DNA from: a virus
DNA length: 25,122 nucleotides
Strand: one strand, 5' to 3'
IMG/VR virus record: IMGVR_UViG_3300027969_002482
Location: 1 to 25,122 of that record
The notes under the pieces are model-generated. The model was not told the DNA's origin and searched no databases. It was given only the letters and a program-made list of their open reading frames with translations. A program made the position numbers and the translations under genes. Positions 4,275-25,122 of this stretch are shown in pieces (the first letter of the stretch is position 1; the number at the start of each line of letters is the position of its first letter).

Positions 4275-4718
4275 TTAATTTATTATAAATATTTTGTTCT
4301 TAGAATTTATCATTTTTACTATATCCGCTTTATATACGGGTTCTTCAGTGTCTTTCATAACAAATGAGTTATACTTATATGGGTTATAAGTCACAATATT
4401 GTTATTAGGTTCACTCGGCATATCTTCACAAGGATAATTACAATAATCAACCAAAGTTCCAATCACAAATGAATGAACATTTTTTCTTTTGTCTTTTAAT
4501 ACTTTATCTCTACCACCTTGTCTAACTCTAAATTCAACATCAAGTAATTTAACGTAATCCGCGTGAGCAATAACTCGTCCGTTATAACTTACTGAAAAGG
4601 TGTGTTTATGTAAATTATAATAAACCATAACCCTATCACCTAAATGTTGTTTTTCTTCATTATTTGTAACATCTTCAAATAATTTCCTATATTGATTTTC
4701 GTTAATTATTAATTTCAT
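4275..4718 (-). CDS. Hypothetical protein with MK-hydrophobic-IINE N-terminal tag
   Basis: 147 residues; I do not recognise the family. The N-terminus MKLIINENQYRKLFEDV is amphipathic and resembles that of the next upstream gene (MKVIITES...), as if both carry a shared short leader. The rest is mixed alpha/beta, basic in the middle (FRVRQGGRDKVLKDKRK, about 68-84), with two Cys close together (YCNYPCEDMP). No signal peptide or membrane segment. It overlaps the 4702-5124 gene by 17 bases, so the two are probably translationally coupled. It lies between the possible neck (5124-5636) and tail-terminator (3236-4270) genes, so a virion or assembly role is possible but unproven. Confidence 0.6.
   Translation of the reverse strand: MKLIINENQYRKLFEDVTNNEEKQHLGDRVMVYYNLHKHTFSVSYNGRVIAHADYVKLLDVEFRVRQGGRDKVLKDKRKNVHSFVIGTLVDYCNYPCEDMPSEPNNNIVTYNPYKYNSFVMKDTEEPVYKADIVKMINSKNKIFIIN
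4284..4291 (-). promoter_or_regulatory. TATTTATA promoter-like octamer upstream of the 344-residue virion protein gene
   Basis: It lies 13 bases before the ATG at 4270, inside the last codons of the preceding gene. The extended form TATTTATAATAAA also precedes the 17890 gene. Function is inferred. Confidence 0.38.
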
Positions 4719-5124
4719 AATTGTAATACGTTGATACGGTTTTAACTGGTAATTTGAAGTTATCTTTAAACCATTTTTTCATCGGTTCTTTCCAATGAGT
4801 TCCAAACATACTATCTAAATGTCTTCCATTTTCACCTAAAACATCTAATATTGGTGCTTCATCTCTAAAAGGTTTATGTGATGGGTCGTTCTTATCATAG
4901 AAATCAACATCAAAATAATGAAAAACAAAATCAGAATCTTCGTAACCTTCATATTCTCCTTTGTAAAACATTAAAAAATTTTCATTTTCTCTATCAATAT
5001 CCGGATATCCATCTTCATCTTCATCAATACCATATATCCAATCCATATTATTTGGGTCAAAGGTTTCATCAATATAGTTATAGATTGAATTAGACACCTT
5101 ACTCTCTGTAATTATTACTTTCAT
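4702..5124 (-). CDS. Hypothetical acidic protein with MK-hydrophobic-IITE N-terminal tag
   Basis: 140 residues, strongly acidic (Asp/Glu clusters such as YGIDEDEDGYPDIDRENENF and GEYEGYEDSDF), family not recognised. The N-terminus MKVIITESKVSNSIYNYIDE resembles that of the downstream gene. The Asp-rich stretch at about 33-45 (DEDEDGYPDID) loosely recalls Ca-binding loops, but spacing does not fit a canonical EF-hand well enough to claim one. Its ATG overlaps the stop of the 5124-5636 gene in a TAATG junction, and its own end overlaps the next gene by 17 bases, which indicates one transcript. Function unknown. Confidence 0.6.
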   Translation of the reverse strand: MKVIITESKVSNSIYNYIDETFDPNNMDWIYGIDEDEDGYPDIDRENENFLMFYKGEYEGYEDSDFVFHYFDVDFYDKNDPSHKPFRDEAPILDVLGENGRHLDSMFGTHWKEPMKKWFKDNFKLPVKTVSTYYNYEINN

Positions 5125-12795: not shown

Positions 12796-12817
12796 AAAAA
12801 GACCCGAAGGTCTTTTT
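12796..12817 (-). terminator. Rho-independent terminator with UUCG tetraloop, end of the right-hand operon
   Basis: Read on the - strand, AAAAAGACC-TTCG-GGTCTTTTT forms a 9-pair stem with a UUCG tetraloop, followed by more T residues (12792-12795). It starts two bases after the stop codon of the 12819-15044 gene. Confidence 0.9.
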
Positions 12818-12818
12818 G

Positions 12819-15044
12819 TTAGATTATAAAGTTGGGGTCGGAATAAATTACCACACCATTTTGTTTTTCATAAATTCTAAAATAGTTACCGGTTGGGACA
12901 CCATTAACCAAATTTTTAGCAAGTATTTTAAAATCATTAATATTTAATACATTTGTTAGTTCCGCTCTGTAATCATATTGATATTTTATATAATAATCGT
13001 CATTATAACCGGATAAATAATTTTGAGAACGATACTCACCAATTAAATCACAAGTTTGTGCCGATAATGACGGTATTATTGTATAATTTGTTCCCGACAT
13101 TGGTAATGTTTTATTTAAATACGAACTAATTATTTCGTAATTTTGAAATGTTGACCCGGTATTAATATTATTATTTAACGTAATTTGAGTAAATCCGTAG
13201 AACGGTATATCAACACGATTACCACTATTGTTAATCCAAGATATGTTATTTAAACTATCTCCCGTAGAAGAATTATTAATTGTTGTGACCACATTATCGA
13301 TATAACTATCACAATATAATTCACAATTAGTAAAACTAATTTGTTTTGTTATTGTTGGCATAGTAACATTCATAAACCAACCATTACTTGTTGAACCTGT
13401 TGTCATCACAGAACTAGTGTGTAAAAAATAATCCTTAAATCCCGTACTATCACCACAACTTTCATTTAATGCCGTATTTGGGTCTAAACTAAGAATCGGA
13501 ACCCTTAAATATATAAATCGGTAATACCTAATATCTGTTGGGTCGGAAATGATTGTTGCGTAAGATAATATTAAATTATATGAATCATTAAAATCTATTA
13601 AATCATTATAATTTGAAAATGTCATATATACATTACCAATACCATTAACACCACTTAAATTTTTTGTAAATGATAATGTGTTATTACTAAATGGTTTACA
13701 AACTGTTTGAAAAGCGGAACCTTGTTGACTACACGATACACCTGAAAACCAATGTGTATTAAATGATGATATTAATCCGTTGATATCATATCTTGCAGCA
13801 CTATTAAAAATTGGTGAAATTATTGATGGAGTATAAAAATATTTATAATAATCTGTATTCTCAATATCTGATGTTGTACATCCACTAGTGTTAAAAGAGA
13901 TATAAAGTCTATTACAACTTTGAGTTATTCCGGTAATTGAACTACCTTGTATTTTATATGGTGAATTTAAATAATTGTTAAAACAAGTATCACAATTAAA
14001 TGTCTCTAAACAAGTGAAATAAAAATCATAATCAGTTTTAAAGTTTAATATGTTTGGTGTAATTTCTAAAACTAAATAATCATCAACACTTCTAGTTAAA
14101 CCAGTTAAACAGGTTACCCTATTGAATCCCGGTTGTTGAGAATATAATAAATTTCTTACTAATTTAGGATTTAGATTATTTGAGAAATTTGTTGTTGAAT
14201 TATCATTCCCAACATTATAATATTCTAAAATAATTGGTGTGTTATTGTAATATGTTCCATAATACGTTATCTTGACTGTGTCAGGAACACTATATCCATT
14301 AAATCTCCAAGCAAAATAGTTAGTAGTATCTGATAATAAAAACGTTGCCTGCACCGGTACTGGTGATTGACCTTGAGAGGCACCTGAAAATTGTAATAAA
14401 TGGGTGTAGTCGCCCTGATTGGTTCCGTTGTCACACGTTAATGGTGATACACTTACCGTTGTATTTGTGAAACAATTTAATGTTGCTTGAACAAATCCTG
14501 TTTCTAGCTGAGAAGAATAGTTTATACCATTTAATCTAACTTTTTTAATAACCGGAACATAGGTACCGGATAACGCAGGAATACTACTAATACCAATTAA
14601 AGGATGTGTAAATCCATATGGTTGGAATAATGTACCGTAACCTGAAGTATAAACAGGTGTGTTTAAATTACTAATATTATACCACTCAATTAAATAATCT
14701 GTTATATTATTATCACAACTACCGGTTAAGTTTCCAGCAATAATTCTACTCAAAGTAGTTGATGAATAAGAGTCAAACCCTAAATCACATATATCGCATA
14801 TCGTATTTTGAGATATTGGTATTGTGACACAACAAGATGAATTCACATCTAAAATTTGAAGTGTTGTTGTTCCGTTTGGAATATTAGTTAATACATATGG
14901 ACAGTTAACTCCGGTTATATTTGATAATAAAATATCTGTTTGAAAAGGGTCTGTATAACTATCCACATCAGAATAAAAATCAACTGATGTTCCTAATTGT
15001 AAACTACCTATATTTGTTAAACAAAATGATGATGAAAATGGCAT
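12819..15044 (-). CDS. Large Cys-, Ser/Thr- and Asn-rich virion protein, probably tail fibre or baseplate
   Basis: 741 residues; no named family recognised. It is beta-rich, full of Ser, Thr, Asn and Tyr, and has many Cys, some paired (SSCCVT at about 69-74; TICDICDLGF at about 81-90; FNCDTCFNN). The first 100 residues look like an Ig-like domain ending in NGTTTLQILDVNSSCCVTIP. The 90s to 180s (SRIIAGNLTGSC ... YLIEWYNISN) read as a second beta domain, and later parts repeat a similar texture. There is no signal peptide, membrane segment or enzyme motif. It follows the 942-residue BppU-like protein after 17 bases and is the last gene before a terminator, so the two are cotranscribed and may assemble together at the baseplate. 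The structural role is inferred from composition and place. Confidence 0.6.
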   Translation of the reverse strand: MPFSSSFCLTNIGSLQLGTSVDFYSDVDSYTDPFQTDILLSNITGVNCPYVLTNIPNGTTTLQILDVNSSCCVTIPISQNTICDICDLGFDSYSSTTLSRIIAGNLTGSCDNNITDYLIEWYNISNLNTPVYTSGYGTLFQPYGFTHPLIGISSIPALSGTYVPVIKKVRLNGINYSSQLETGFVQATLNCFTNTTVSVSPLTCDNGTNQGDYTHLLQFSGASQGQSPVPVQATFLLSDTTNYFAWRFNGYSVPDTVKITYYGTYYNNTPIILEYYNVGNDNSTTNFSNNLNPKLVRNLLYSQQPGFNRVTCLTGLTRSVDDYLVLEITPNILNFKTDYDFYFTCLETFNCDTCFNNYLNSPYKIQGSSITGITQSCNRLYISFNTSGCTTSDIENTDYYKYFYTPSIISPIFNSAARYDINGLISSFNTHWFSGVSCSQQGSAFQTVCKPFSNNTLSFTKNLSGVNGIGNVYMTFSNYNDLIDFNDSYNLILSYATIISDPTDIRYYRFIYLRVPILSLDPNTALNESCGDSTGFKDYFLHTSSVMTTGSTSNGWFMNVTMPTITKQISFTNCELYCDSYIDNVVTTINNSSTGDSLNNISWINNSGNRVDIPFYGFTQITLNNNINTGSTFQNYEIISSYLNKTLPMSGTNYTIIPSLSAQTCDLIGEYRSQNYLSGYNDDYYIKYQYDYRAELTNVLNINDFKILAKNLVNGVPTGNYFRIYEKQNGVVIYSDPNFII

Positions 15045-15061
15045 AATTATATTTTTTTTAT

Positions 15062-17890
15062 TTATTGAGGTCCGGGTACATTTATTGATGGGTTTACTAA
15101 TTTAAATTTAGTATTAGTTATATCTCCGGTGATGGGAACGATGTTCGTGTACGCTCGTTGAAACATATTAGCGGCACACGGGTCAAATGGATTGTTTTTC
15201 CAACCTAAATCATATTGATAAAGTATTGTGCCTGAAACATTTCTAACCTGTAAATATAAAGATTGAACTTGTGAAGAATCTACCCAACCAAACAAAATGT
15301 CCTCATTACATTGTGGTATAATTTGAACAGTGTTTAATTGAGTCCACGTATAACCTGTTGGATATGCTTGTGTAATATTGTTGAACCCTGTATTACCCGT
15401 ATAAATGGTATACCAAACAGTTACCATCATTGGTGAAAATGTGTTAGAAATTGACCCCCATATAGCATTTCTATAAACACCTGATGGTGGTGATGGAACT
15501 GTTTGTGGTGTTGTATTTGATATTATGTATGAATACCCACTAATTCCACAATTATTACACGATGATTGTGCTGACGGTGTTGGTGTCATAGTTGGTGTTT
15601 TTGTTGGTGTTGTTGTTACCGTTGATGTTACTGTCGGTGTTGGTGTTTGAGTTCTCGTAGGAGTAGTTGTTTTTGTAGGTGTTGGAGTCGGTGTTGGACA
15701 TACAATACTTAATTTTGACAAACAATCCGGACAATCATTAAAAATAGTTAAATTTGAACTATTAAATTGAAGATTAGTGTTTGTTTCAGAAATTACCACC
15801 ACACAACCTGAATAACCACTAGTTTCTAAATAATATGACGCACCTATGGTTAAACCACTTGACATTGAACCAACTTTAATTTTAATATTTGCATCACAAC
15901 AATCTTGGAAATAACCGATAATTGGGGGTAATGGTGATGAAGTTATTGTTGGGGTTGGAGTCCTTGTTTGTGTTACAGTTGGTGTTGGTGTTCTTGTCGT
16001 TGTAACTGTTGGTGTAACCGTTGGAGTTGATGTTTTTGTAACAGTTTGCGTTGGTGTCGGGGTTGGAGTTCTGGTTGATAATGGTGTTCTAGTAACTGTG
16101 GTAGTTGGTGTTGGTGTTGGAGTCTTTGTTTTTGTTGGGGTAGGTGTTAAAGCACAAGGATTTATACTAATACAACTTGAACAACCAGAGTATATTGTTG
16201 AATTGTCCCAATAAAATGTTGGTATAGACCCCTTTATAGCTGTTCCGGTGATTGTATAACAAGTACCATTCAGAAGAATAGTACTTCCAATAATAAAAGT
16301 TGATGGTAAAATTACCACACCTGATAAAGTACCACAACAAGATAAAACATTATAAGGTATATTAATAATTCGTCTAGTTGGTGTTGGTGTTTTAGTTGGT
16401 GTTGGTGTGGATGTTTTAGTTGGTGTTACTGTTGGTGTTGTTGTTGGTGTTGGTGTCGTGGTAGTTGTCGGTGTAGGGTTTGGTGTTGAACCAATTGTTT
16501 TTGTTGGTGTTGGAGTAGGTGTTCTTGTTGGTTTTACAACATAGTATATAACGGTATTAGATGTTGTTGTTGGACAACCATCACAAATTGTGGTTACATT
16601 AAAATAAATTACTGATGGTAATGAACCTGTCAAAGTAATACTTACCGGTGAACTACACACACCACTAACACTTGTAAAATTAATGTTATCTGATGACCAA
16701 TTTACAATAGACGAATTACAACATCCAGTATTACTAAAATATACTAAAAATGTATTACCACTTGTATTTATAACGGTATTTAATACCGGTGTGTTACATC
16801 TTTTTGTTGGTGTAGGTGTTGGTGTCGGAGTAACTAAACAAGGGTTTTGTGTCGATGTTGGTGTAGGTGTTGGAGTTGGTTTTACTACATTACAAGGATT
16901 TCTACCAGTACAAGTTCTACAATCTTTATAATATTTACCACTGAACGATAAATCAACATCACAAATGTCTTGAAAATCTTTTAAAATATAACAAAAACCA
17001 TCATTTCCAACTAACGTTGTTCCTAATGGCATTGTTATTGGAATATCTCCCATACAATATGTTAATCCATCACAACAACTAACAACTGTTGCAAATACAA
17101 ATCTTGGTCTTGGTCTTGGTCCTATTGGCTCAATAATAATTGGACTATCAATAATCGGCATTAAATCATATTGAGAATAACTATCCGAAGTTAATACAAC
17201 ATCTGAAAATAATGTAGATAAATTTAATCTATTAAAATCATCATCAACTATTATTTCAGTCGTAGCCTCCTTATAACCGGTGTAAATTGTTACCGAAGTA
17301 TTAATAGTAATTGGTTCCCCATCAATAACACCCAAAACATTTTTAAACGATACCGTCATATCTGTATCGGCAACATACCTCGACGTTGCAGTATACAAAG
17401 CACCAATAGACCCAGGATAATATTGGGGAACAATAGTTACATTATTTTCATTTGGGTTATCAACTATTATAGGATTTCCACAACAAGGGAATGTTGATGT
17501 ATAACAAGTGTTATATTCTAAATCGTCAGCAATAAACGACTCTTGAATATAAATAAACAATTTTTCTCTAACAGGTAAAATAACATTACCCTCAAATGTT
17601 TTAACCAAAAACTGCCCTTCATATCTACCCTCAATACTCGTGTCTTGTTTGGTAAATTGATAGTAAATATAATATTCAGGTTCTGCATTGGGGTCGTCAA
17701 ATATTTTTTCAACAAATCCAGCAGGTCTTGAAGTTATTCTAGGAATCCCATTCTCGGTATTAACCATAGAAAAGAATATGGTGGAAGTTTCCAACAATTC
17801 CATAAAATTATTGTAATCACTTCTACCATCTTTTACTACTTGGAGTTTAAGGAGGGGTAAGGTTGCGTTTTTCTTTATAAAAAATTCCAT
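15062..17890 (-). CDS. Mucin-like baseplate/fibre protein: BppU-like N-terminus, Thr-Pro linkers, three Cys-rich modules
   Basis: 942 residues. Residues 1-120 resemble the Ig-like BppU N-terminal domain that anchors baseplate proteins: FIKKNATLPLLKL, a 'G.p.it..aGfv' region, YYIYYQFT, EGRYEGQFLV, and LFIYIQESF. Residues 121-265 are an unrecognised beta region. Then small domains alternate with Thr-Pro-rich linkers: Cys module 1 (267-333), linker (337-364), an Fn3-like domain (365-452), linker (453-507), Cys module 2 (512-579), linker (580-656), Cys module 3 (657-731), linker (732-776), and a C-terminal beta domain (777-942). The modules share CC-x(24-30)-C-x(23-25)-C-x2-C-x(5-7)-C. The Thr-Pro linkers are natural candidates for O-glycosylation, and three glycosyltransferase genes lie directly upstream in the same operon. 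A TATTTATA octamer lies 13 bases before the ATG. A virion role is inferred. Confidence 0.7.
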   Translation of the reverse strand: MEFFIKKNATLPLLKLQVVKDGRSDYNNFMELLETSTIFFSMVNTENGIPRITSRPAGFVEKIFDDPNAEPEYYIYYQFTKQDTSIEGRYEGQFLVKTFEGNVILPVREKLFIYIQESFIADDLEYNTCYTSTFPCCGNPIIVDNPNENNVTIVPQYYPGSIGALYTATSRYVADTDMTVSFKNVLGVIDGEPITINTSVTIYTGYKEATTEIIVDDDFNRLNLSTLFSDVVLTSDSYSQYDLMPIIDSPIIIEPIGPRPRPRFVFATVVSCCDGLTYCMGDIPITMPLGTTLVGNDGFCYILKDFQDICDVDLSFSGKYYKDCRTCTGRNPCNVVKPTPTPTPTSTQNPCLVTPTPTPTPTKRCNTPVLNTVINTSGNTFLVYFSNTGCCNSSIVNWSSDNINFTSVSGVCSSPVSITLTGSLPSVIYFNVTTICDGCPTTTSNTVIYYVVKPTRTPTPTPTKTIGSTPNPTPTTTTTPTPTTTPTVTPTKTSTPTPTKTPTPTRRIINIPYNVLSCCGTLSGVVILPSTFIIGSTILLNGTCYTITGTAIKGSIPTFYWDNSTIYSGCSSCISINPCALTPTPTKTKTPTPTPTTTVTRTPLSTRTPTPTPTQTVTKTSTPTVTPTVTTTRTPTPTVTQTRTPTPTITSSPLPPIIGYFQDCCDANIKIKVGSMSSGLTIGASYYLETSGYSGCVVVISETNTNLQFNSSNLTIFNDCPDCLSKLSIVCPTPTPTPTKTTTPTRTQTPTPTVTSTVTTTPTKTPTMTPTPSAQSSCNNCGISGYSYIISNTTPQTVPSPPSGVYRNAIWGSISNTFSPMMVTVWYTIYTGNTGFNNITQAYPTGYTWTQLNTVQIIPQCNEDILFGWVDSSQVQSLYLQVRNVSGTILYQYDLGWKNNPFDPCAANMFQRAYTNIVPITGDITNTKFKLVNPSINVPGPQ
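15563..15697 (-). repeat. Thr-Pro linker 4 (low-complexity ACACCA-type repeats)
   Basis: Encodes residues 732-776 of the 942-residue protein, almost only Thr and Pro with Lys, Arg, Val and Met interruptions. On the + strand it reads as imperfect GGTGTT repeats. Confidence 0.8.
15923..16153 (-). repeat. Thr-Pro linker 3, the longest
   Basis: Encodes residues 580-656, imperfect TP, TPTV and TRTP units between Cys modules 2 and 3. It contains several near-identical DNA stretches with linkers 2 and 4. Confidence 0.8.
16370..16534 (-). repeat. Thr-Pro linker 2
   Basis: Encodes residues 453-507 between the Fn3-like domain and Cys module 2, with TP units interrupted by Lys, Asn and Thr runs. Confidence 0.8.
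16799..16882 (-). repeat. Thr-Pro linker 1, a double tract split by NPC
   Basis: Encodes residues 337-364: two TPTPTPT tracts separated by STQNPCLV. The extra Cys could take part in a disulphide with the neighbouring module. Confidence 0.75.
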
Positions 17891-17903
17891 CTAAAGTTTT
17901 TAT

Positions 17904-17911
17904 TATAAATA
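17904..17911 (-). promoter_or_regulatory. TATTTATA promoter-like octamer upstream of the mucin-like protein gene
   Basis: It lies 13 bases before the ATG at 17890 in the 36-base gap after the glycosyltransferase gene, in the extended form TATTTATAATAAA also found before the 4270 gene. It could give the structural genes their own transcript. Confidence 0.42.
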
Positions 17912-17926
17912 CTTCGTAATACGGAA

Positions 17927-19603
17927 TTAGCTTTCTTTTCTTAACGACCCATCATAATGTTCAAATCGGTTGTGTTCAGTTGGGGTTAATAATAATAGTC
18001 CGGGTTTTATATTACCTTTAACAGTTTCTTGATAAGCGTATGACATAAGAGTTTGTTCAAACGGATGAGCCCACTTAGTTTCCAAATAACATTTATAATT
18101 CCCTTTCTTGGTTAAAACTATTGGCCAATTACATAAATAAATCTCACCCGACACATATGGTAATCCTTTATGAATATTAATCTCATCAAATTTTGTTTTT
18201 GGTGAGTTCGGGTCTAAACCTTGAACCGGTAATTTTGCGTTGTTTGGCCAATGTGATTGTCTAAAATCCTGAGGAACATTATACCAACTCCATTGGACAC
18301 TGTTATCACCAAAAAATTCACTAAAATTTAATTTTAAAAAATCAAAATTTTCTTTTTCTACAATTTCTAATGATTTTTGATATAAATTATCAATAAATCT
18401 TGGAAATCCATTTCTACAAACTTCACCTTTCTTAGGATAAAATGCCATATCATCTTCAAACCACCAACAAAAATCTAAATCAGTTTCATCAAAATGTTCG
18501 GCAACAAATACTCGACCACCAACAATACCGATATTGTCTTTCTTAATATGTTCAAACCCGTATTGTTCGCATAGTTCAATATATCTTGGTGTTGTTGATA
18601 AATCTGTTGAATTGTCTAATAAAAATTTTCTTGGTTTTTCAATAAAATCTTTATCATAATCTAACATTGATTGAATTAAAACTTCTAATTGTTTTGGTGA
18701 ATTAAATGTTATAATATAAAGACCTACTTTGGATGAGTCTAAATTATTTACTGTCACATTTTTAACTACTTCTGATTTAACCTCAACCGTAGTATTTTTT
18801 AAATCTTCAAAAAATTTACCCATTAGTCCGTTACCTTCAATTTCGGAATAACTAATTAAATTAGGATATTTATAAGTCATAATCGTAAACAGAGATTCTT
18901 CGGTACCCATTAAACCTTGTGATAATGTATCATTCATTAAACCATAGTAGATACTATTGATTTCAGATATTACATTTTTTTTACCTCCAAAGAATCCGGC
19001 ACGGGCAACCATATTAACTGGTTTACCGGCTAATTCGCACAACTCATTATATTTGAATCCGTGAATTTCACTATTAGTTTCATATGGAAAACAAACAAAG
19101 TGAAAGTTTTTAACTAATTTTGGTAATTTATCTAAAACTTTGTCGTGTGTAAAATATCCGGGATGGATTGTATTAGTTAAACCTGCGTCAATCCAAAACA
19201 TATATTCCGAATCAAACTTATCTAAAATTTTGGCATCGTGTAACAAATAAACTTTAGACATAACCAAAGGATTGTACATTTCTAATTTAGCTTGAGTGGA
19301 ATCAGTTAACCATCCAACCTGATTATACCAATCAGGATTAGTTCTAATTTTTTGTATTTTTTCATAGAATTCATTATTCTTAAACCAAGATAAATCTCTT
19401 CTAAAAAATTGAGTATTTTCAGACCGTCTATTATTATTAACAAACCCCTCCAATTCTTCATCACCAAATATTATCATATTCACATCAACTTGTAATAGTT
19501 GTTGGAATTTGTCTAAATAATATTGAAATGAGCGAGACCACCCTTCTTGAAGGTCGCTTCTACCAATATCCCATAATCCGGTTACTAAAGTTATTTTATT
19601 CAT
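17927..19603 (-). CDS. Two-domain glycosyltransferase: HtrL/YibB-like plus GT-A (GT2-like)
   Basis: 558 residues, soluble, no membrane segment. The N-terminal domain (1-270) resembles the HtrL/YibB family: ITLVTGLWDIGR at the start, WSRSFQYYLDKF, VNMIIFGD, FWIDAGL (136-142), ARAGFFGGKK (200-209) and EESLFTIM (235-242). The C-terminal domain (291-558) resembles a GT-A fold: VGLYIITFNSPKQLEVLIQS as the nucleotide-binding start, KFLLDNSTD, and WWFEDDMAF (380-388), whose EDD is a candidate metal-binding DxD-type motif. The start overlaps the end of the upstream glycosyltransferase gene by 8 bases, so translation is probably coupled. The upstream gene holds the same HtrL-like domain at its other end. 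Sugar and acceptor are unknown; the neighbouring Thr-Pro-rich virion proteins are possible acceptors. Confidence 0.75.
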   Translation of the reverse strand: MNKITLVTGLWDIGRSDLQEGWSRSFQYYLDKFQQLLQVDVNMIIFGDEELEGFVNNNRRSENTQFFRRDLSWFKNNEFYEKIQKIRTNPDWYNQVGWLTDSTQAKLEMYNPLVMSKVYLLHDAKILDKFDSEYMFWIDAGLTNTIHPGYFTHDKVLDKLPKLVKNFHFVCFPYETNSEIHGFKYNELCELAGKPVNMVARAGFFGGKKNVISEINSIYYGLMNDTLSQGLMGTEESLFTIMTYKYPNLISYSEIEGNGLMGKFFEDLKNTTVEVKSEVVKNVTVNNLDSSKVGLYIITFNSPKQLEVLIQSMLDYDKDFIEKPRKFLLDNSTDLSTTPRYIELCEQYGFEHIKKDNIGIVGGRVFVAEHFDETDLDFCWWFEDDMAFYPKKGEVCRNGFPRFIDNLYQKSLEIVEKENFDFLKLNFSEFFGDNSVQWSWYNVPQDFRQSHWPNNAKLPVQGLDPNSPKTKFDEINIHKGLPYVSGEIYLCNWPIVLTKKGNYKCYLETKWAHPFEQTLMSYAYQETVKGNIKPGLLLLTPTEHNRFEHYDGSLRKES

Positions 19604-21266
19604 ATATGTTATTTAGTTCTGTTAAAATTTTATAAAAACTTCTATTGTTTTTAACGTGTTCCGCCATATCCGTTCCGGCCATTCTCTCATCTTCGTGCCA
19701 CCAAGTTTCAAAATAATAATCATAAAATAAATCAGGATGATTTCTAAACATTAACGTCATAATATCTTCTTCGTGGTATAATCGTTTATCGTGTTCAGAA
19801 ACTTTATAAACGTAATCTGTAAATAATTGAACGATTGGGTCCCACAATTCTTTTCTACCACCAAACATTCCACCTATAATATGAATACTTCGATTATATT
19901 CAATAAAATGTATTGGGTTTACTGTTCCTGACCAAAAATTCCTATCATTCTCTTTCCCAATAAGTGTAAATTTATCACCGGTATTTTTAATTAAATTATT
20001 TAAAAACAAATTATTAAATAATGGACTTTCATAATAACCTCTATTATGAGGTCCGGACAAGGATAGATGTTTATTTGGAATTAAACCACAGTGAGATAAT
20101 CCGGCATCAATCCAAAAATAGTAATCGTAAGATTTATCTTCACTTAAAAACCAAATAAATTTCATATATTGAATTTCAATACATCTATCACCTCTCTTAA
20201 TACCTTCAATATCTTTATATTGATTAATTATTTCAGAAAATTCATTATCATATAGGTTAAATTTAACTATTTGTAATTTTTCTCGATTAATATTATTTTC
20301 TTCATAAAAAAATTGTTCTAAACCATCAAATTCCTCATCTGAAGTATAACAAATAAAATCGGCATTAGTCATTTTTAATATTGATAATAAACTCCATCGA
20401 TAATGTCCGTGTCTATTAGGTCTTCCACCTAATTCTGTTCCGTATAAATTAGAATAAATTGCGGTAATAAATTTAACACTATATTCAGATTTACTATCTA
20501 ATAATGGTAAATTAATCTCTAATGATTTATGAGTATTTTCAAATATTTTATTATTTGGTTTGATTATTTTTTCAGGATATTTTTTTTCTTTCTCACAATA
20601 ATCTATATCGTAATATAAATTACTAATTTTATTCTCAGTATATAAATTCCAATTATAGGTAATCAAATAATGGTTATTATCATCTGTATTATTAATATCT
20701 GAAAAACCATTTTTTTGTGTTACAATAGGTATTGATGGTGCATAACATTTTAAAATTTTGTAAATATCTTCGTAAAAAAATTGGTCAATAGCTTTCTGAT
20801 TATTTATCTCCCAATCTAAAACTTTTTTGGCGAACTTTCTATTAGTTATGTAACAAACTGTATTATATATTCCTCTGTGATGAGGTTCTTGTTCAGGTAA
20901 TTCTGATAAGTTTAATAAATTTTCTGAAAAATCATTAACCGGACAATTAATACTCGGACCTAAATGAAAAAAATCCCACTCAATATCATTTAATTCTTTT
21001 AGTGATTTTTCTAATTGATTTTTAGCGTATGGCATAAAATAACAATCATCTTCAATAATCATTAGATAATCGTCATTTGTTTTTAAAAAATCTTTTAGTA
21101 TTTCTTGATGTGATAATGCGCAACCAATATAACTACCCTTATCAATTGCTTCAAAAATTTCATAATCCCAACCAATATAACTCATTTCTTGGTCAAAATT
21201 TTCTAATCTATCTGTTCTTCTTTTAAGATTTACAACAACCTTTCTTATTTTATCTATATCTAACAT
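19596..21266 (-). CDS. Two-domain glycosyltransferase: GT25-like plus HtrL/YibB-like
   Basis: 556 residues. The N-terminal domain (1-210) has the hallmarks of glycosyltransferase family 25 (LPS and collagen-type galactosyltransferases): VVNLKRRTDRLENF (11-24), GCALSHQEILKDF (48-60) and YLMIIEDDCYF (67-77) with the EDD metal-binding motif (72-74). The C-terminal part (264-556) resembles HtrL/YibB: VKFITAIYSNLYG, FWIDAGL (384-390), and later GGMFGGRKELWDP and HEEDIMTLMF, all with counterparts in the next gene's N-terminal half. It lies 6 bases after the GT60-like gene and overlaps the next by 8 bases, so the three enzymes form one translational unit. Substrates are unknown. Confidence 0.78.
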   Translation of the reverse strand: MLDIDKIRKVVVNLKRRTDRLENFDQEMSYIGWDYEIFEAIDKGSYIGCALSHQEILKDFLKTNDDYLMIIEDDCYFMPYAKNQLEKSLKELNDIEWDFFHLGPSINCPVNDFSENLLNLSELPEQEPHHRGIYNTVCYITNRKFAKKVLDWEINNQKAIDQFFYEDIYKILKCYAPSIPIVTQKNGFSDINNTDDNNHYLITYNWNLYTENKISNLYYDIDYCEKEKKYPEKIIKPNNKIFENTHKSLEINLPLLDSKSEYSVKFITAIYSNLYGTELGGRPNRHGHYRWSLLSILKMTNADFICYTSDEEFDGLEQFFYEENNINREKLQIVKFNLYDNEFSEIINQYKDIEGIKRGDRCIEIQYMKFIWFLSEDKSYDYYFWIDAGLSHCGLIPNKHLSLSGPHNRGYYESPLFNNLFLNNLIKNTGDKFTLIGKENDRNFWSGTVNPIHFIEYNRSIHIIGGMFGGRKELWDPIVQLFTDYVYKVSEHDKRLYHEEDIMTLMFRNHPDLFYDYYFETWWHEDERMAGTDMAEHVKNNRSFYKILTELNNIYE

Positions 21267-21272
21267 CTAAGA

Positions 21273-22520
21273 TTACAAATTTCCCGTTATTCTTTCACAC
21301 CAATCTTTTGATGTGCTGTGCGGCCAAACCACCCAATATTTTGGTTTATGTGTTGTTTGAAACTCTCTCCAAACTTTACAATACCCATCAGGGTCGTTCA
21401 TCATCATATTAATTTCGTTAATATCAGCATCTTTTCTAAATATTGTTTCATCATTTTCATCGTGAAATGCAACAACCCAAAAATCATAATCTTTTTCCGG
21501 AACCTGACTAAATCCAATATCAATACAATGTTTAAAGATACTTGCGTAACTTGCCAACCATTCTTCCTCGGTTTCAAATATTTGAGGATTAGGTGCGTAG
21601 TGTTTATCTAATGTATATTGTTGAACTGCTCTATTTGAAAATTTAAGCCCGGAGTAAATTTCATAATCTCTTAAAGTTCTTTCGGTTCCAAAACCATAAT
21701 AACTAAAATCCAAAGTAACTTCTTCACCATCCATTCCAAATAGTTGACGATTCTTCTTATGAGATAATTCATTTTTCTTACCCCACTCTTTATCATCATC
21801 CCATTGTTTGGTTCTACCCTTACGAGTATATTCGTGCCAAATTACGGTTTTGTGTGGGTGAAATAAATCATATCCGTGAGTAAATGCTCTAACGGCAATC
21901 GATATCTCTTCTCCGTGAAAATAAAACTCAGGGTCGTGCTGAACCTCAACACTAAATTGTCCTAAGGTAAATGCCATATGTGCTGAATAAAATCGTGAAG
22001 TAACCGGTTCGGTTAATTTTTCCCATCCCGGAATTGTTTCAGGTAAGAAGAAAACCGCACCTTCGGGAATGAATCTATCAAAGACCATTCTCCAAGGCTC
22101 ATTAACTCTACCTGCCGGGTCATTATCCGGGTCGAATGAGGAAACGTATCCGGTTAATAAAGGTTTCTTAAATCCTTTCTTTTGAAGTTGTTTAATCATT
22201 TTGATTAAGGTGTCATCCCAATCCTTTTCGAATCTCATATGAGAATCAATTTGTAAGGTATACTCTTCACCTTTATATAATTGTTGAACTTGGTTTCTTG
22301 CCCAACATACACCTTTTGATTCTGTATATAGGACATCAACAACTCTGAATCGTTTATCTTTAGCATACTCCGATAAATCATCAAACCCATCCTCAGGATG
22401 ATATTGACGACAAATTCCGATTACTAAATTTTTAGGTTTTTTTGCATTCTCCAACATTGATTTAATTGTTGGGATAAGTTGGGGGTCACGATAAGATGCT
22501 ATCTGTACAAATATCTTCAT
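21273..22520 (-). CDS. GlcNAc-transferase-like glycosyltransferase (GT60 type)
   Basis: 415 residues. The protein follows the pattern of the GlcNAc family that includes Skp1 GlcNAc-transferase: IFVQIASYRDPQLIPTIKSM (3-22), LVIGICRQYHPEDGF, ESKGVCWARN (67-76), LQIDSHMRF (89-97) with the D-x-H metal motif, WDDTLI, and YFHGEEISIAVRAFTHGYD (200-218) followed by VIWHEY (226-231). Known relatives add GlcNAc to a hydroxyproline or other protein hydroxyl, which fits a protein acceptor. It is the first of three packed glycosyltransferase genes and lies downstream of a BspA-like adhesin and a 75-residue gene. The last 150 residues are unrecognised. The family call is strong; the acceptor is inferred. 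Confidence 0.85.
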   Translation of the reverse strand: MKIFVQIASYRDPQLIPTIKSMLENAKKPKNLVIGICRQYHPEDGFDDLSEYAKDKRFRVVDVLYTESKGVCWARNQVQQLYKGEEYTLQIDSHMRFEKDWDDTLIKMIKQLQKKGFKKPLLTGYVSSFDPDNDPAGRVNEPWRMVFDRFIPEGAVFFLPETIPGWEKLTEPVTSRFYSAHMAFTLGQFSVEVQHDPEFYFHGEEISIAVRAFTHGYDLFHPHKTVIWHEYTRKGRTKQWDDDKEWGKKNELSHKKNRQLFGMDGEEVTLDFSYYGFGTERTLRDYEIYSGLKFSNRAVQQYTLDKHYAPNPQIFETEEEWLASYASIFKHCIDIGFSQVPEKDYDFWVVAFHDENDETIFRKDADINEINMMMNDPDGYCKVWREFQTTHKPKYWVVWPHSTSKDWCERITGNL

Positions 22521-22602
22521 TTAATATCTTTTTATTAGAAAAATAATATTTTTTATAAAAAGATAAATAACATTATACTAAATTTAGTGGTAAATCAGGA
22601 GG
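22521..22602. promoter_or_regulatory. Intergenic region with 12-base palindrome and promoter-like variant
   Basis: This 82-base AT-rich gap precedes the glycosyltransferase genes. It holds the perfect palindrome ACTAAATTTAGT (22577-22588) and, reading leftward, a TATTTATC variant of the promoter-like octamer (22562-22569) 41 bases before the ATG. The palindrome has no T tract that would make it a terminator, so an operator is possible. Confidence 0.35.
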
Positions 22603-22830
22603 TTACGAAATATTAATTGTTAAACCCGAACTTGGTAAACTATCTTCATAATTGATGTTATGGTTTAATAACTCATCAATGTATTCTTGTTCTACCGTTG
22701 TTGTATAAACATTTTCTTTTCCTGTTACCATACATTGGTCCGTATCAATTGTTCCATAATGAACATTATCATCGTTTTCATTATATGCAATGAAATATGT
22801 TTTTTCTAAAGGGTAATTAATTTCTGCCAT
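22603..22830 (-). CDS. Small hypothetical protein between adhesin and glycosyltransferases
   Basis: 75 residues, acidic, no signal peptide or membrane segment. The middle (YFIAYNENDDNVHYGTID) suggests beta strands, followed by an acidic helix (VEQEYIDELLNH) and a tail ending GLTINIS. I do not recognise it. It starts 19 bases after the stop of the BspA-like gene on the same strand with an A-rich leader and no Shine-Dalgarno. Small genes beside fibre genes are often chaperones or fibre tips, but nothing here shows that. Confidence 0.6.
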   Translation of the reverse strand: MAEINYPLEKTYFIAYNENDDNVHYGTIDTDQCMVTGKENVYTTTVEQEYIDELLNHNINYEDSLPSSGLTINIS

Positions 22831-22849
22831 ATTTTTTAAATTTTAATTT

Positions 22850-25122
22850 TTATATTCCACCATCGGTTATTGTCCAACCATATGTTCCTTGAAGAATTGC
22901 CTTACCGGCTGAACCGGCCGCAGTATATTTAATTGTGTTAAAAGTAATGTTTCTTCCGGTCTGAACAGATGGTAACGAACTCCAACCATTGTAAATCGCG
23001 TCTAAGTTTGTTGTTGAATAATCACTAAAAGTTTTCAAAGCCATAAAATTTGTAAAATTAGTAACCCCACTGACATTCCAACCACCAATATTTTGGTTAA
23101 AATTTGTCGCTCCGTGAAACATAGACTCCATCACGTTAACCTTTGAAACATTCCAATTTCCAATTGGTTGGTTAAATTGAGTTGCGGCTCTAAACATCCA
23201 ATACATACTAACATTACTTGAAGTATTGATTGTCCACCCACTAATTGATGGTGAGCCACCATTATTAAATGATGAAATTAAAAACATTCCACCAAATTCA
23301 GTAACTTTACTAACATTCCAATTTCCAATATTTTGGTTAAACGCCGCATTTCCGTTAAACATACCAAACATACTGGTAACTAATGATGGTGTCCAAGCAC
23401 TGATTGATGGTGAACCACCGTTATTAAATGTATGTGAGGAGGCAAACCCTTGAAACATAAGACTCATACCGGTAACCTTAGACACATTCCACGCACCAAT
23501 ATCTTGATTAAATAGGTAAGCATCTCTAAACATACTGCCCATATTAGTCACATTACCCACATTCCAAGAATTTAAAGGTTGATTAAAATTTGATGCTGTA
23601 TTAAATATAGACGACATATTAGTCACATTACCCACATTCCAAGAACCAATATTTTGGTTAAATGATGTAGCTTGACTAAACATACCACTCATATTAGTAA
23701 CACTACCCACATCCCAAGAATTTAGAGGTTGGTTAAACACTGATGCTTGATTAAACATATTTATCATATTTGTAACACTACTAACGTCCCAATTATTTAA
23801 TGGTTGGTTAAATAATATATCGTTATAGAACATTGAAGTCATATTAGTAACGTTTGATACATTCCAAGAATTAATTGGTTGATTAAAAGGTGTTGATAAA
23901 AACATACCTGACATATCTGTAACATTAGACGTTGACCAACCACTAATAGATGGATAACCACCGTTATTAAATGAACTACTATTAAACATTTGATTCATAG
24001 TAGTCACATTTGAAACATCCCAAGAACCAATTGGTTGATTGAATTGTGTTGACGCAAACATATCACCCATATCTGTAACGTTATAAGTGGTCCAACCACT
24101 AATCATTGGCGAACCTCCGTTATTAAATGATGTACAACCATTAAAAGTCCCTTTCATATTAGTAACATTACCAACATTCCAAGAACTTAAATTTTGGTTA
24201 AAAACGGTATTTTGTAAGAACATATAACTTATAGATTGAACATTTGATACATCCCAAACACCGATTGGTTGATTAAATAAATAAGTGTTATCAAACATTG
24301 CTCCCATATCTGTAACATTACTAACATCCCAACCTGATATGTCGTCATTAAAATTATAACACTCAACAAACATACCTTGCATATTTGTTACGTTTGATGT
24401 GTTCCAGGAATTTATAAAAGGAACTGTTGTTAAATTATTACAATACCCAAACGTATAAGATAAATTATTTGTTCCTGTTAAATTTAAAACATCTGTAACA
24501 TTTGATAATATCAAATTACTACAAGATTCAAAATTACCACCACTATTACCTAATCTTAAACAACCCCATTGTAAAACCTCATATATTTTGAACGAACTAA
24601 AAGAGTTAACCCCAAATGACCAACCAATTAATACTCCAGTTATAGTTATGGTGTATGTTCCAGGAGTTGTGTATATATGTTCTATATTATCGTAAGTGTT
24701 TGTAGATGTTGTTCCATCACCCCAATCAATTATTCCACTATACCATCCTCCTGATTCATAAGGTAAGACAATTAATTCTGATGGTACTGTTATAACCCAA
24801 ACAGATATAAATGATGGTGGTACCGGTGGAGTACAAGTATTGTATTTAATACATAATTTACAATCAAGATATGTTGTACCGTGATTCCAATAATCTGTTA
24901 CATATGTTTTTATTGGTGATTTTGAAACTATTTCATAACATTCTCCAAAAGTATTTAATATTGATGTTCCAGGTAAAAAATTTATAGGTAACATCATATA
25001 TTTAACTTTCTTATCACAACAAGATACAATTTGGAATAAAATATATTGAAATGATGGTGTTGGTGTATGAGTCGGTGTTTGAGTCGGTGTCTTAGTCATC
25101 GTAACCGTTGGTGTTGGTGTTA
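22850..25122 (-). CDS. BspA-like DUF285-repeat adhesin with Cys module and PKD-like domain, N-terminus beyond the window
   Basis: At least 757 residues; the frame stays open to the right edge, so the true start lies outside. The ATG at 25099 is an internal Met in a Thr-Pro linker (TPTVTMTKTPTQTPT). Numbered from that Met: linker to 15, a Cys module (24-89) of the same type as in the 942-residue protein, a PKD-like domain (97-158, DWGDGTT...HIYTTPGTYTITI), then 17-18 DUF285/BspA-type repeats (228-690) on the pattern W-[ND]-V-[SG]-NVTNM-x2-MF-x5-FNQPI. The C-terminal 50 residues (LDAIYNGWSSL ... GTYGWTITDGG) form a capping end typical of such proteins. The family is known from surface proteins that bind host molecules, so a fibre or receptor-binding role is likely. 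It heads the leftward glycosyltransferase operon. Confidence 0.82.
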   Translation of the reverse strand, partial: TPTPTVTMTKTPTQTPTHTPTPSFQYILFQIVSCCDKKVKYMMLPINFLPGTSILNTFGECYEIVSKSPIKTYVTDYWNHGTTYLDCKLCIKYNTCTPPVPPSFISVWVITVPSELIVLPYESGGWYSGIIDWGDGTTSTNTYDNIEHIYTTPGTYTITITGVLIGWSFGVNSFSSFKIYEVLQWGCLRLGNSGGNFESCSNLILSNVTDVLNLTGTNNLSYTFGYCNNLTTVPFINSWNTSNVTNMQGMFVECYNFNDDISGWDVSNVTDMGAMFDNTYLFNQPIGVWDVSNVQSISYMFLQNTVFNQNLSSWNVGNVTNMKGTFNGCTSFNNGGSPMISGWTTYNVTDMGDMFASTQFNQPIGSWDVSNVTTMNQMFNSSSFNNGGYPSISGWSTSNVTDMSGMFLSTPFNQPINSWNVSNVTNMTSMFYNDILFNQPLNNWDVSSVTNMINMFNQASVFNQPLNSWDVGSVTNMSGMFSQATSFNQNIGSWNVGNVTNMSSIFNTASNFNQPLNSWNVGNVTNMGSMFRDAYLFNQDIGAWNVSKVTGMSLMFQGFASSHTFNNGGSPSISAWTPSLVTSMFGMFNGNAAFNQNIGNWNVSKVTEFGGMFLISSFNNGGSPSISGWTINTSSNVSMYWMFRAATQFNQPIGNWNVSKVNVMESMFHGATNFNQNIGGWNVSGVTNFTNFMALKTFSDYSTTNLDAIYNGWSSLPSVQTGRNITFNTIKYTAAGSAGKAILQGTYGWTITDGGI
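23030..24418 (-). repeat. Array of 17-18 DUF285/BspA-type repeats
   Basis: Repeats are about 25 residues (75 bases), with several lengthened by an NNGG[SY]P[SM]I insertion before the next Trp. The units are similar enough at DNA level (for example a recurring TTGGTTAAA / TTGATTAAA on the + strand) that slippage or recombination could change copy number. Confidence 0.85.
25052..25122 (-). repeat. Thr-Pro linker at the right edge
   Basis: Encodes repeated Thr-Pro pairs with Val, Lys, Gln and His interruptions, running past the window end. The + strand reads as GGTGTT-type repeats, as in the linkers of the 942-residue protein. Confidence 0.8.

Follow-up and report, generated by a model that had tools for sequence, protein, structure and literature searches.

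We identified a cassette of glycosyltransferase genes which suggests that a freshwater phage, together with several distantly related giant phages, builds its own mucin-like tail coat. The suggestion comes from the combination of an initiating enzyme of the mucin type with Thr-Pro proteins that accompany it almost constantly. The best explanation, which we consider probable, is that the phage encodes a mucin-type O-glycosylation system directed at threonines of Thr-Pro linkers in its tail or baseplate proteins; what the acceptor and the sugar are, in which order the chain grows and what the phage gains are inferred.

The window (the whole stretch of DNA that was analyzed, 25,122 bases long, with 32% G+C and forming an entire IMG/VR record) comes, as judged from its sequence, from a large tailed phage. 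The cassette lies near polB, the gene of a family-B DNA polymerase, and the window also carries neck-like and sheath-like genes, the sheath label being a reading from sequence and position without a family match. Scans of the window for tRNA and Rfam families gave no matches. The initial annotation had placed three packed transferase genes between two genes for Thr-Pro linker proteins, all in one direction and ending at one terminator. The genes, their order and their strand stand, with a small ORF intervening on the upstream side (Table 1). Both flanking linker genes are present, but the upstream one is incomplete and DUF285/PARCEL repeats make up most of it; its product also contains a Thr-Pro linker, a Cys module and a PKD-like stretch. 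The terminator had been misplaced, since the hairpin follows the next gene of the run and not the linker gene. The DUF285/PARCEL (TIGR02167) array of the upstream protein is long, and such repeats are better known from surface proteins of Mycoplasma and Listeria. Elsewhere in the window (4275-5124), small proteins share a common MKxIITE-type start, and three tandem near-copies of a small protein resembling them are found in locus L229 (13156-14851).

Table 1. Features of the cassette region, in window coordinates.
Feature	Position	Strand	Remarks
Upstream linker protein	22850..25122	-	N-terminus cut by contig end; probable virion surface/adhesin protein
75-aa ORF	22603..22830	-	between upstream linker gene and GT60; relatives only in 3 loci
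GT60-like polypeptide HexNAc-transferase	21273..22520	-	PF11397; phrog_24687
GT25 domain then HtrL-like domain	19596..21266	-	GT25 part variable among relatives
HtrL_YibB domain and C-terminal GT-A-like domain	17927..19603	-	constant partner of GT60
Downstream linker protein	15062..17890	-	putatively BppU-like N-terminal domain, Cys modules, Thr-Pro linkers, C-terminal domain
741-aa probable virion protein	12819..15044	-	next gene of same run
Intrinsic-terminator-like hairpin with T tail	12796..12817	-	ends run

The first transferase is GT60-like, as had been proposed: it matches PF11397 (GlcNAc transferase, CAZy GT60) with 230 bits against a cut-off of 21 (E 7e-68). D92 and H94, which we take to be the DxH metal motif of related GT27/GT60 enzymes, are invariant in all 115 sequences (115/115) of an alignment of the window's enzyme with 114 dereplicated relatives. 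When the AlphaFold model of the protein (mean pLDDT 92.9) was compared with the PDB by Foldseek, the best 41 matches were all polypeptide GalNAc-transferases of the GT-A fold, from mammals, fly and Toxoplasma; the lowest E value was 8e-11, and the global TM-score reached only about 0.5. At the sequence level, profiles of the GT60, HtrL-like and GT-A parts retrieved nothing useful from solved structures; for GT60 it was the fold search that worked. The GT60 activities that we found described all modify polypeptides. Members of the family make GlcNAc-alpha-Thr on the mucins of T. cruzi (PMC9472816) and act on mucin-type domains in Dictyostelium (PMC8724618, PMC3188802), and the hydroxyproline of Skp1 is also modified by a GT60-type polypeptide alpha-GlcNAc transferase. 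Hydroxyproline, with a prolyl 4-hydroxylase as partner, had been put forward as an acceptor in the window. However, oxygenases of the prolyl-4-hydroxylase type, searched for as PF13640, were found in only 2/22 phage records with GT60, and GT60 enzymes are known to modify threonine directly (PMC9472816, PMC8724618). The hydroxyproline route was therefore rejected as the general case, although hydroxylation by the host or by an oxygenase from a different family is conceivable, and threonine is the likelier acceptor.

The second gene is composed as first read, with a GT25 domain in its first half (PF01755, E 1e-13) and, in its second half, a match to the HtrL profile by hhalign (probability 98%, E 7e-14), PF09612 being matched by 3/18 members. 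For the third gene, the HtrL_YibB domain was confirmed (PF09612, E 2e-18, 67 bits against a cut-off of 24), although the NCBIfam YibB equivalog cut-off was not reached. Its GT-A half is weakly backed, through relatives: this half of the window's protein has no Pfam match, while relatives match Glycos_transf_2 above the cut-off (locus L467) and TAGT (PF20691) just below it (25 vs 27.5 bits). The order GT60, variable genes, HtrL/GT-A, linker-protein N-domain gene and polB is kept in about 80 close loci, and the HtrL/GT-A gene is directly upstream in 162/180 N-domain loci. GT60 and HtrL/GT-A are thus the constant members of the supposed trio, whereas the GT25 part is not conserved and the genes between the two change. 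These variable genes form 60 clusters and include FkbM methyltransferases, GT2, GT10, GT11, GT25, a carbamoyltransferase, an aminotransferase, an epimerase and an acetyltransferase. GT60 is also kept with HtrL/GT-A in phages XacN1 and RAS14 and in most of the 17 environmental loci that a search with the XacN1 enzyme retrieved, often with the carbamoyltransferase between them. From this gene pattern we infer an initiation step that stays constant and is followed by tailoring that varies.

The downstream linker protein (942 aa) has an N-terminal domain of residues 1 to ~125, then Thr-Pro linkers (at about residues 334-369, 450-509, 575-659 and 725-777) that alternate with Cys modules, and last a C-terminal domain. 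The linkers are real: their 146 residues include 65 T and 43 P, T precedes 34 of the 43 P, and they are encoded by mixed synonymous codons. Thr-Pro (TP) genes exceed chance at the genome level. In four related or GT60-bearing phages, 8-15 TP genes per genome were counted, against 1-3 after within-protein residue shuffling; XacN1 has 15 and RAS14 has 13. The Cys module described as common to both linker proteins was recovered, that of the DUF285 protein matching those of the TP protein with E 5e-12 and 3e-6, and phrog_15511 matches tie these modules to linker proteins of other lineages. Searches with the N-terminal domain gave no match in Pfam or in cultured phages. Its structural model matched BppU N-terminal, baseplate, tailspike and minor-tail proteins in BFVD (E 5e-5 to 9e-4, modest TM-scores of 0.4-0.5), and the linker protein may begin with a baseplate/tail-like fold. 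The PDB fold search with this domain returned only immunoglobulin-like folds of poor fit, which were set aside. At locus L344, where GT60 is much diverged, a tail protein nearby repeats Thr-Pro about twenty times in a row; the linker protein of this locus matches minor-tail, virion-structural and tail-fiber families. A radical SAM/SPASM enzyme is encoded between the tail protein with the Thr-Pro run and the diverged GT60 (L344 1752-5744), which suggests another kind of modification there.

The linkers and GT60 go together in other phages, as the co-occurrence check proposed in the initial annotation had asked. When whole records were searched for coding DNA of the pattern, (Thr-Pro)3 was present in 50/53 GT60-bearing records, and the exceptions were short fragments. 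The first set of 22 records (20 environmental ones of 130-322 kb, XacN1 and RAS14) contained the pattern in 22/22, 6-44 times each, with 0-1 matches to the reversed pattern. In the second set, selected for GT60, 28/31 were positive; the exceptions were fragments of 40, 58 and 65 kb, and one positive was a whole bacterial MAG, with 1 of its 2 matches on the GT60 contig. Among 14 control jumbo phages picked by us, including RaK2, CBB, GAP32 and Atu_ph07, (Thr-Pro)3 was found in 1/14, as a single match, and PF11397 in 0/14. Contigs picked only for (Thr-Pro)5 carried PF11397 in 7/42 cases, compared with 0/34 for those picked for [KERG]-Pro repeats ([KERG]P5; Fisher p 0.015, the p values being only indicative, given the non-independence of records from one lineage). 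The remaining 35/42 (Thr-Pro)5-picked records, many of them fragments, had the linkers without GT60. These results show an association between Thr-Pro linkers and GT60. The impression that linkers are often absent in relatives was discarded as a threshold effect of the strict Thr-Pro pattern, since whole-record searches find them. In the short sequences L174 and L232, which are PolB relatives, neither transferases nor Thr-Pro tracts were seen upstream of polB.

It is conceivable, though unlikely, that the enzymes glycosylate another virion acceptor, such as the sheath, the capsid or the Cys/Ig-like domains, and that Thr-Pro linkers are flexible spacers common in large phages. The gene adjoining the cassette has a Thr-Pro linker in only 93/174 complete relatives, so that in about half of these phages other linker proteins would be meant, and the known phage glycoproteins are the capsid and tail tube of mycobacteriophages (as cited in PMC12619734). 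However, the tracts are uncommon in other jumbo phages (1/14), and the [KERG]-Pro type of repeat showed no GT60 (0/34).

Glycosylation of the Thr-Pro linkers is also consistent with gene positions in separate lineages. The window's clade and its sister clade, with a PolB identity of about 61%, carry GT60 enzymes that differ (mostly about 40-44% identity to the window's) and occupy different sites. GT60 of the sister clade lies tens of kilobases from polB, and TP tracts are found at <=3 kb from it in 27/31 dereplicated loci, with a density of 3.2 per kb within 3 kb of GT60 vs 0.6 per kb at 3-8 kb. Within a locus, TP tracts lie closer to GT60 than to the other genes, both in the window's clade (p 7e-8) and in the sister clade (p 1e-4), near-relatives in these tests not being independent; the adjacency was not significant in a mixed group of other loci or in XacN1-type loci. 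Two TP genes directly flank GT60 and a second gene in a 292-kb record (L486), a TP gene adjoins GT60 in L466 and L340, and TP genes are not adjacent to GT60 in XacN1-type phages.

ORF334 of XacN1 is a GT60 homologous to that of the window (48% identity) and likewise has an HtrL+GT-A partner, but a carbamoyltransferase lies between the two and the Thr-Pro genes are elsewhere in the genome. Several of these are beside sheath, baseplate-wedge and head-completion genes. According to PMC5852040, proteomic analysis detected at least two glycoproteins in XacN1 virions, and the authors proposed virion glycoprotein synthesis for ORF334. XacN1 further encodes ORF392 (AP018399.1 285246-286136), a diverged thymidylate synthase homolog besides ORF186 and possibly a base-modification enzyme. 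In the enzyme tree the GT60 of XacN1-type phages is nested next to the window's group, but the window's PolB has no match in these phages; a transfer of the enzyme between distant phages is therefore probable. Neither GT60 nor Thr-Pro tracts are present in those RaK2-like relatives of XacN1 that were tested, so that both make a joint appearance on the XacN1 branch. The balance tips slightly toward several giant-phage lineages having a mucin-type pathway of their own with a rapidly exchanged tailoring cassette that gives each phage its own sugar coat, GT60 and linkers having been gained together in distant phages.

The closest long relative of the window's phage is 308,574 bases in length and has a PolB 95% identical to the window's. 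Moraphages are described, in PMC12619734, as freshwater phages of Bacteroidota hosts with PolB, genomes of up to about 308 kb and four core glycosyltransferase groups. Judged by these reported features, which fit, the window's phage likely belongs to this lineage. A scan of genome contigs for hosts found a GT60 relative in one Saprospiraceae MAG contig only.

It is rather unlikely that the transferases act on phage DNA, adding sugar to a hydroxymethylated base as a protection against restriction, and that the tail genes nearby are coincidental. DNA is a frequent target of phage glycosyltransferases, the HtrL+GT-A protein comes near TAGT, a family of TET-associated DNA glycosyltransferases, in its C-terminal half, XacN1 has its diverged thymidylate synthase-like gene, and the moraphage authors raise DNA glucosylation (PMC12619734). 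On the other hand, Tet_JBP was found in 0/22 records, in a search that gave no positive-control match, and thymidylate synthase-family genes were found in only 12/22, those examined in the window's clade having the canonical motif. The GT60 fold matches polypeptide transferases, and DNA modification leaves the Thr-Pro link unexplained. In one record (G002, locus L383 8716-10363) the thymidylate synthase gene is split and a 240-aa GIY-YIG-like ORF is inserted next to its two parts; G001 and G006 likewise gave split matches, pointing to an intron or similar element. Alteration of the LPS or capsule of the infected cell, for superinfection block or phage release, is quite improbable: HtrL_YibB and GT25 are found in LPS loci and the middle genes vary as much as LPS/capsule genes, but the cassette has a conserved place within late tail/structural gene runs, its initiating enzyme is of the polypeptide type, and no lipid-carrier or flippase gene is among the cassette families listed (25 of 41).

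Tail glycosylation, as the initial annotation had read the cassette, is thus retained without its hydroxyproline part, on the strength of the co-occurrence, the adjacency, the polypeptide-transferase fold, the putative baseplate/tail-like domain and the XacN1 glycoproteins. In the proposed pathway, Thr of the Thr-Pro linkers would receive HexNAc (by analogy GlcNAc) through the GT60-like enzyme, with a UDP-sugar of the host cytosol as donor. Extension and decoration of the chain would fall to the HtrL+GT-A enzyme and to the exchangeable genes in the middle (GT25+HtrL here; elsewhere GT2, GT10, GT11, FkbM methyltransferases, the carbamoyltransferase or a sugar aminotransferase). This may yield stiff glycosylated spacers, resistant to proteases, that separate small Cys-rich or adhesin domains and bear a glycan differing from phage to phage.

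Few cases of glycosylated phage virions are known, and the rules by which acceptors are chosen are poorly understood. If the proposal is true, bacterial viruses would have a counterpart of mucins, and a variable glycan may mask, stiffen or tune their tail adhesins. The GT60 and Thr-Pro signature recurs in uncultured jumbo phages and in cultured XacN1 and RAS14, and is therefore testable in the laboratory. The proposal would also explain the core glycosyltransferases of moraphages, probably the same lineage as the window, whose four orthogroups were left without an assigned target by the authors; the accessible part of that paper (PMC12619734) connects these orthogroups neither with Thr-Pro proteins nor with the GT60 type. 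Mycobacteriophage virion glycosylation is similar in its phage-encoded transferases and virion protein target (proposed here), but there the targets are the C-termini of capsid and tail-tube proteins (Freeman et al. 2023, as cited in PMC12619734), whereas here a GT60-type enzyme and Thr-Pro linkers would be involved. Hydroxyproline glycosylation of Skp1 (Gnt1/PhyA) shares a cytosolic initiating enzyme of the GT60 type and differs in its prolyl hydroxylase partner, present in just two of the 22 phage records. There is also a likeness to the mucin-type O-glycosylation of T. cruzi (OGNTs) and Dictyostelium, with a PF11397/GT60 enzyme, Thr/Pro-rich candidate acceptors and extending transferases; here, however, the system is encoded by a tailed phage, would work in the bacterial cytosol and has virion tail proteins as its candidate acceptors.
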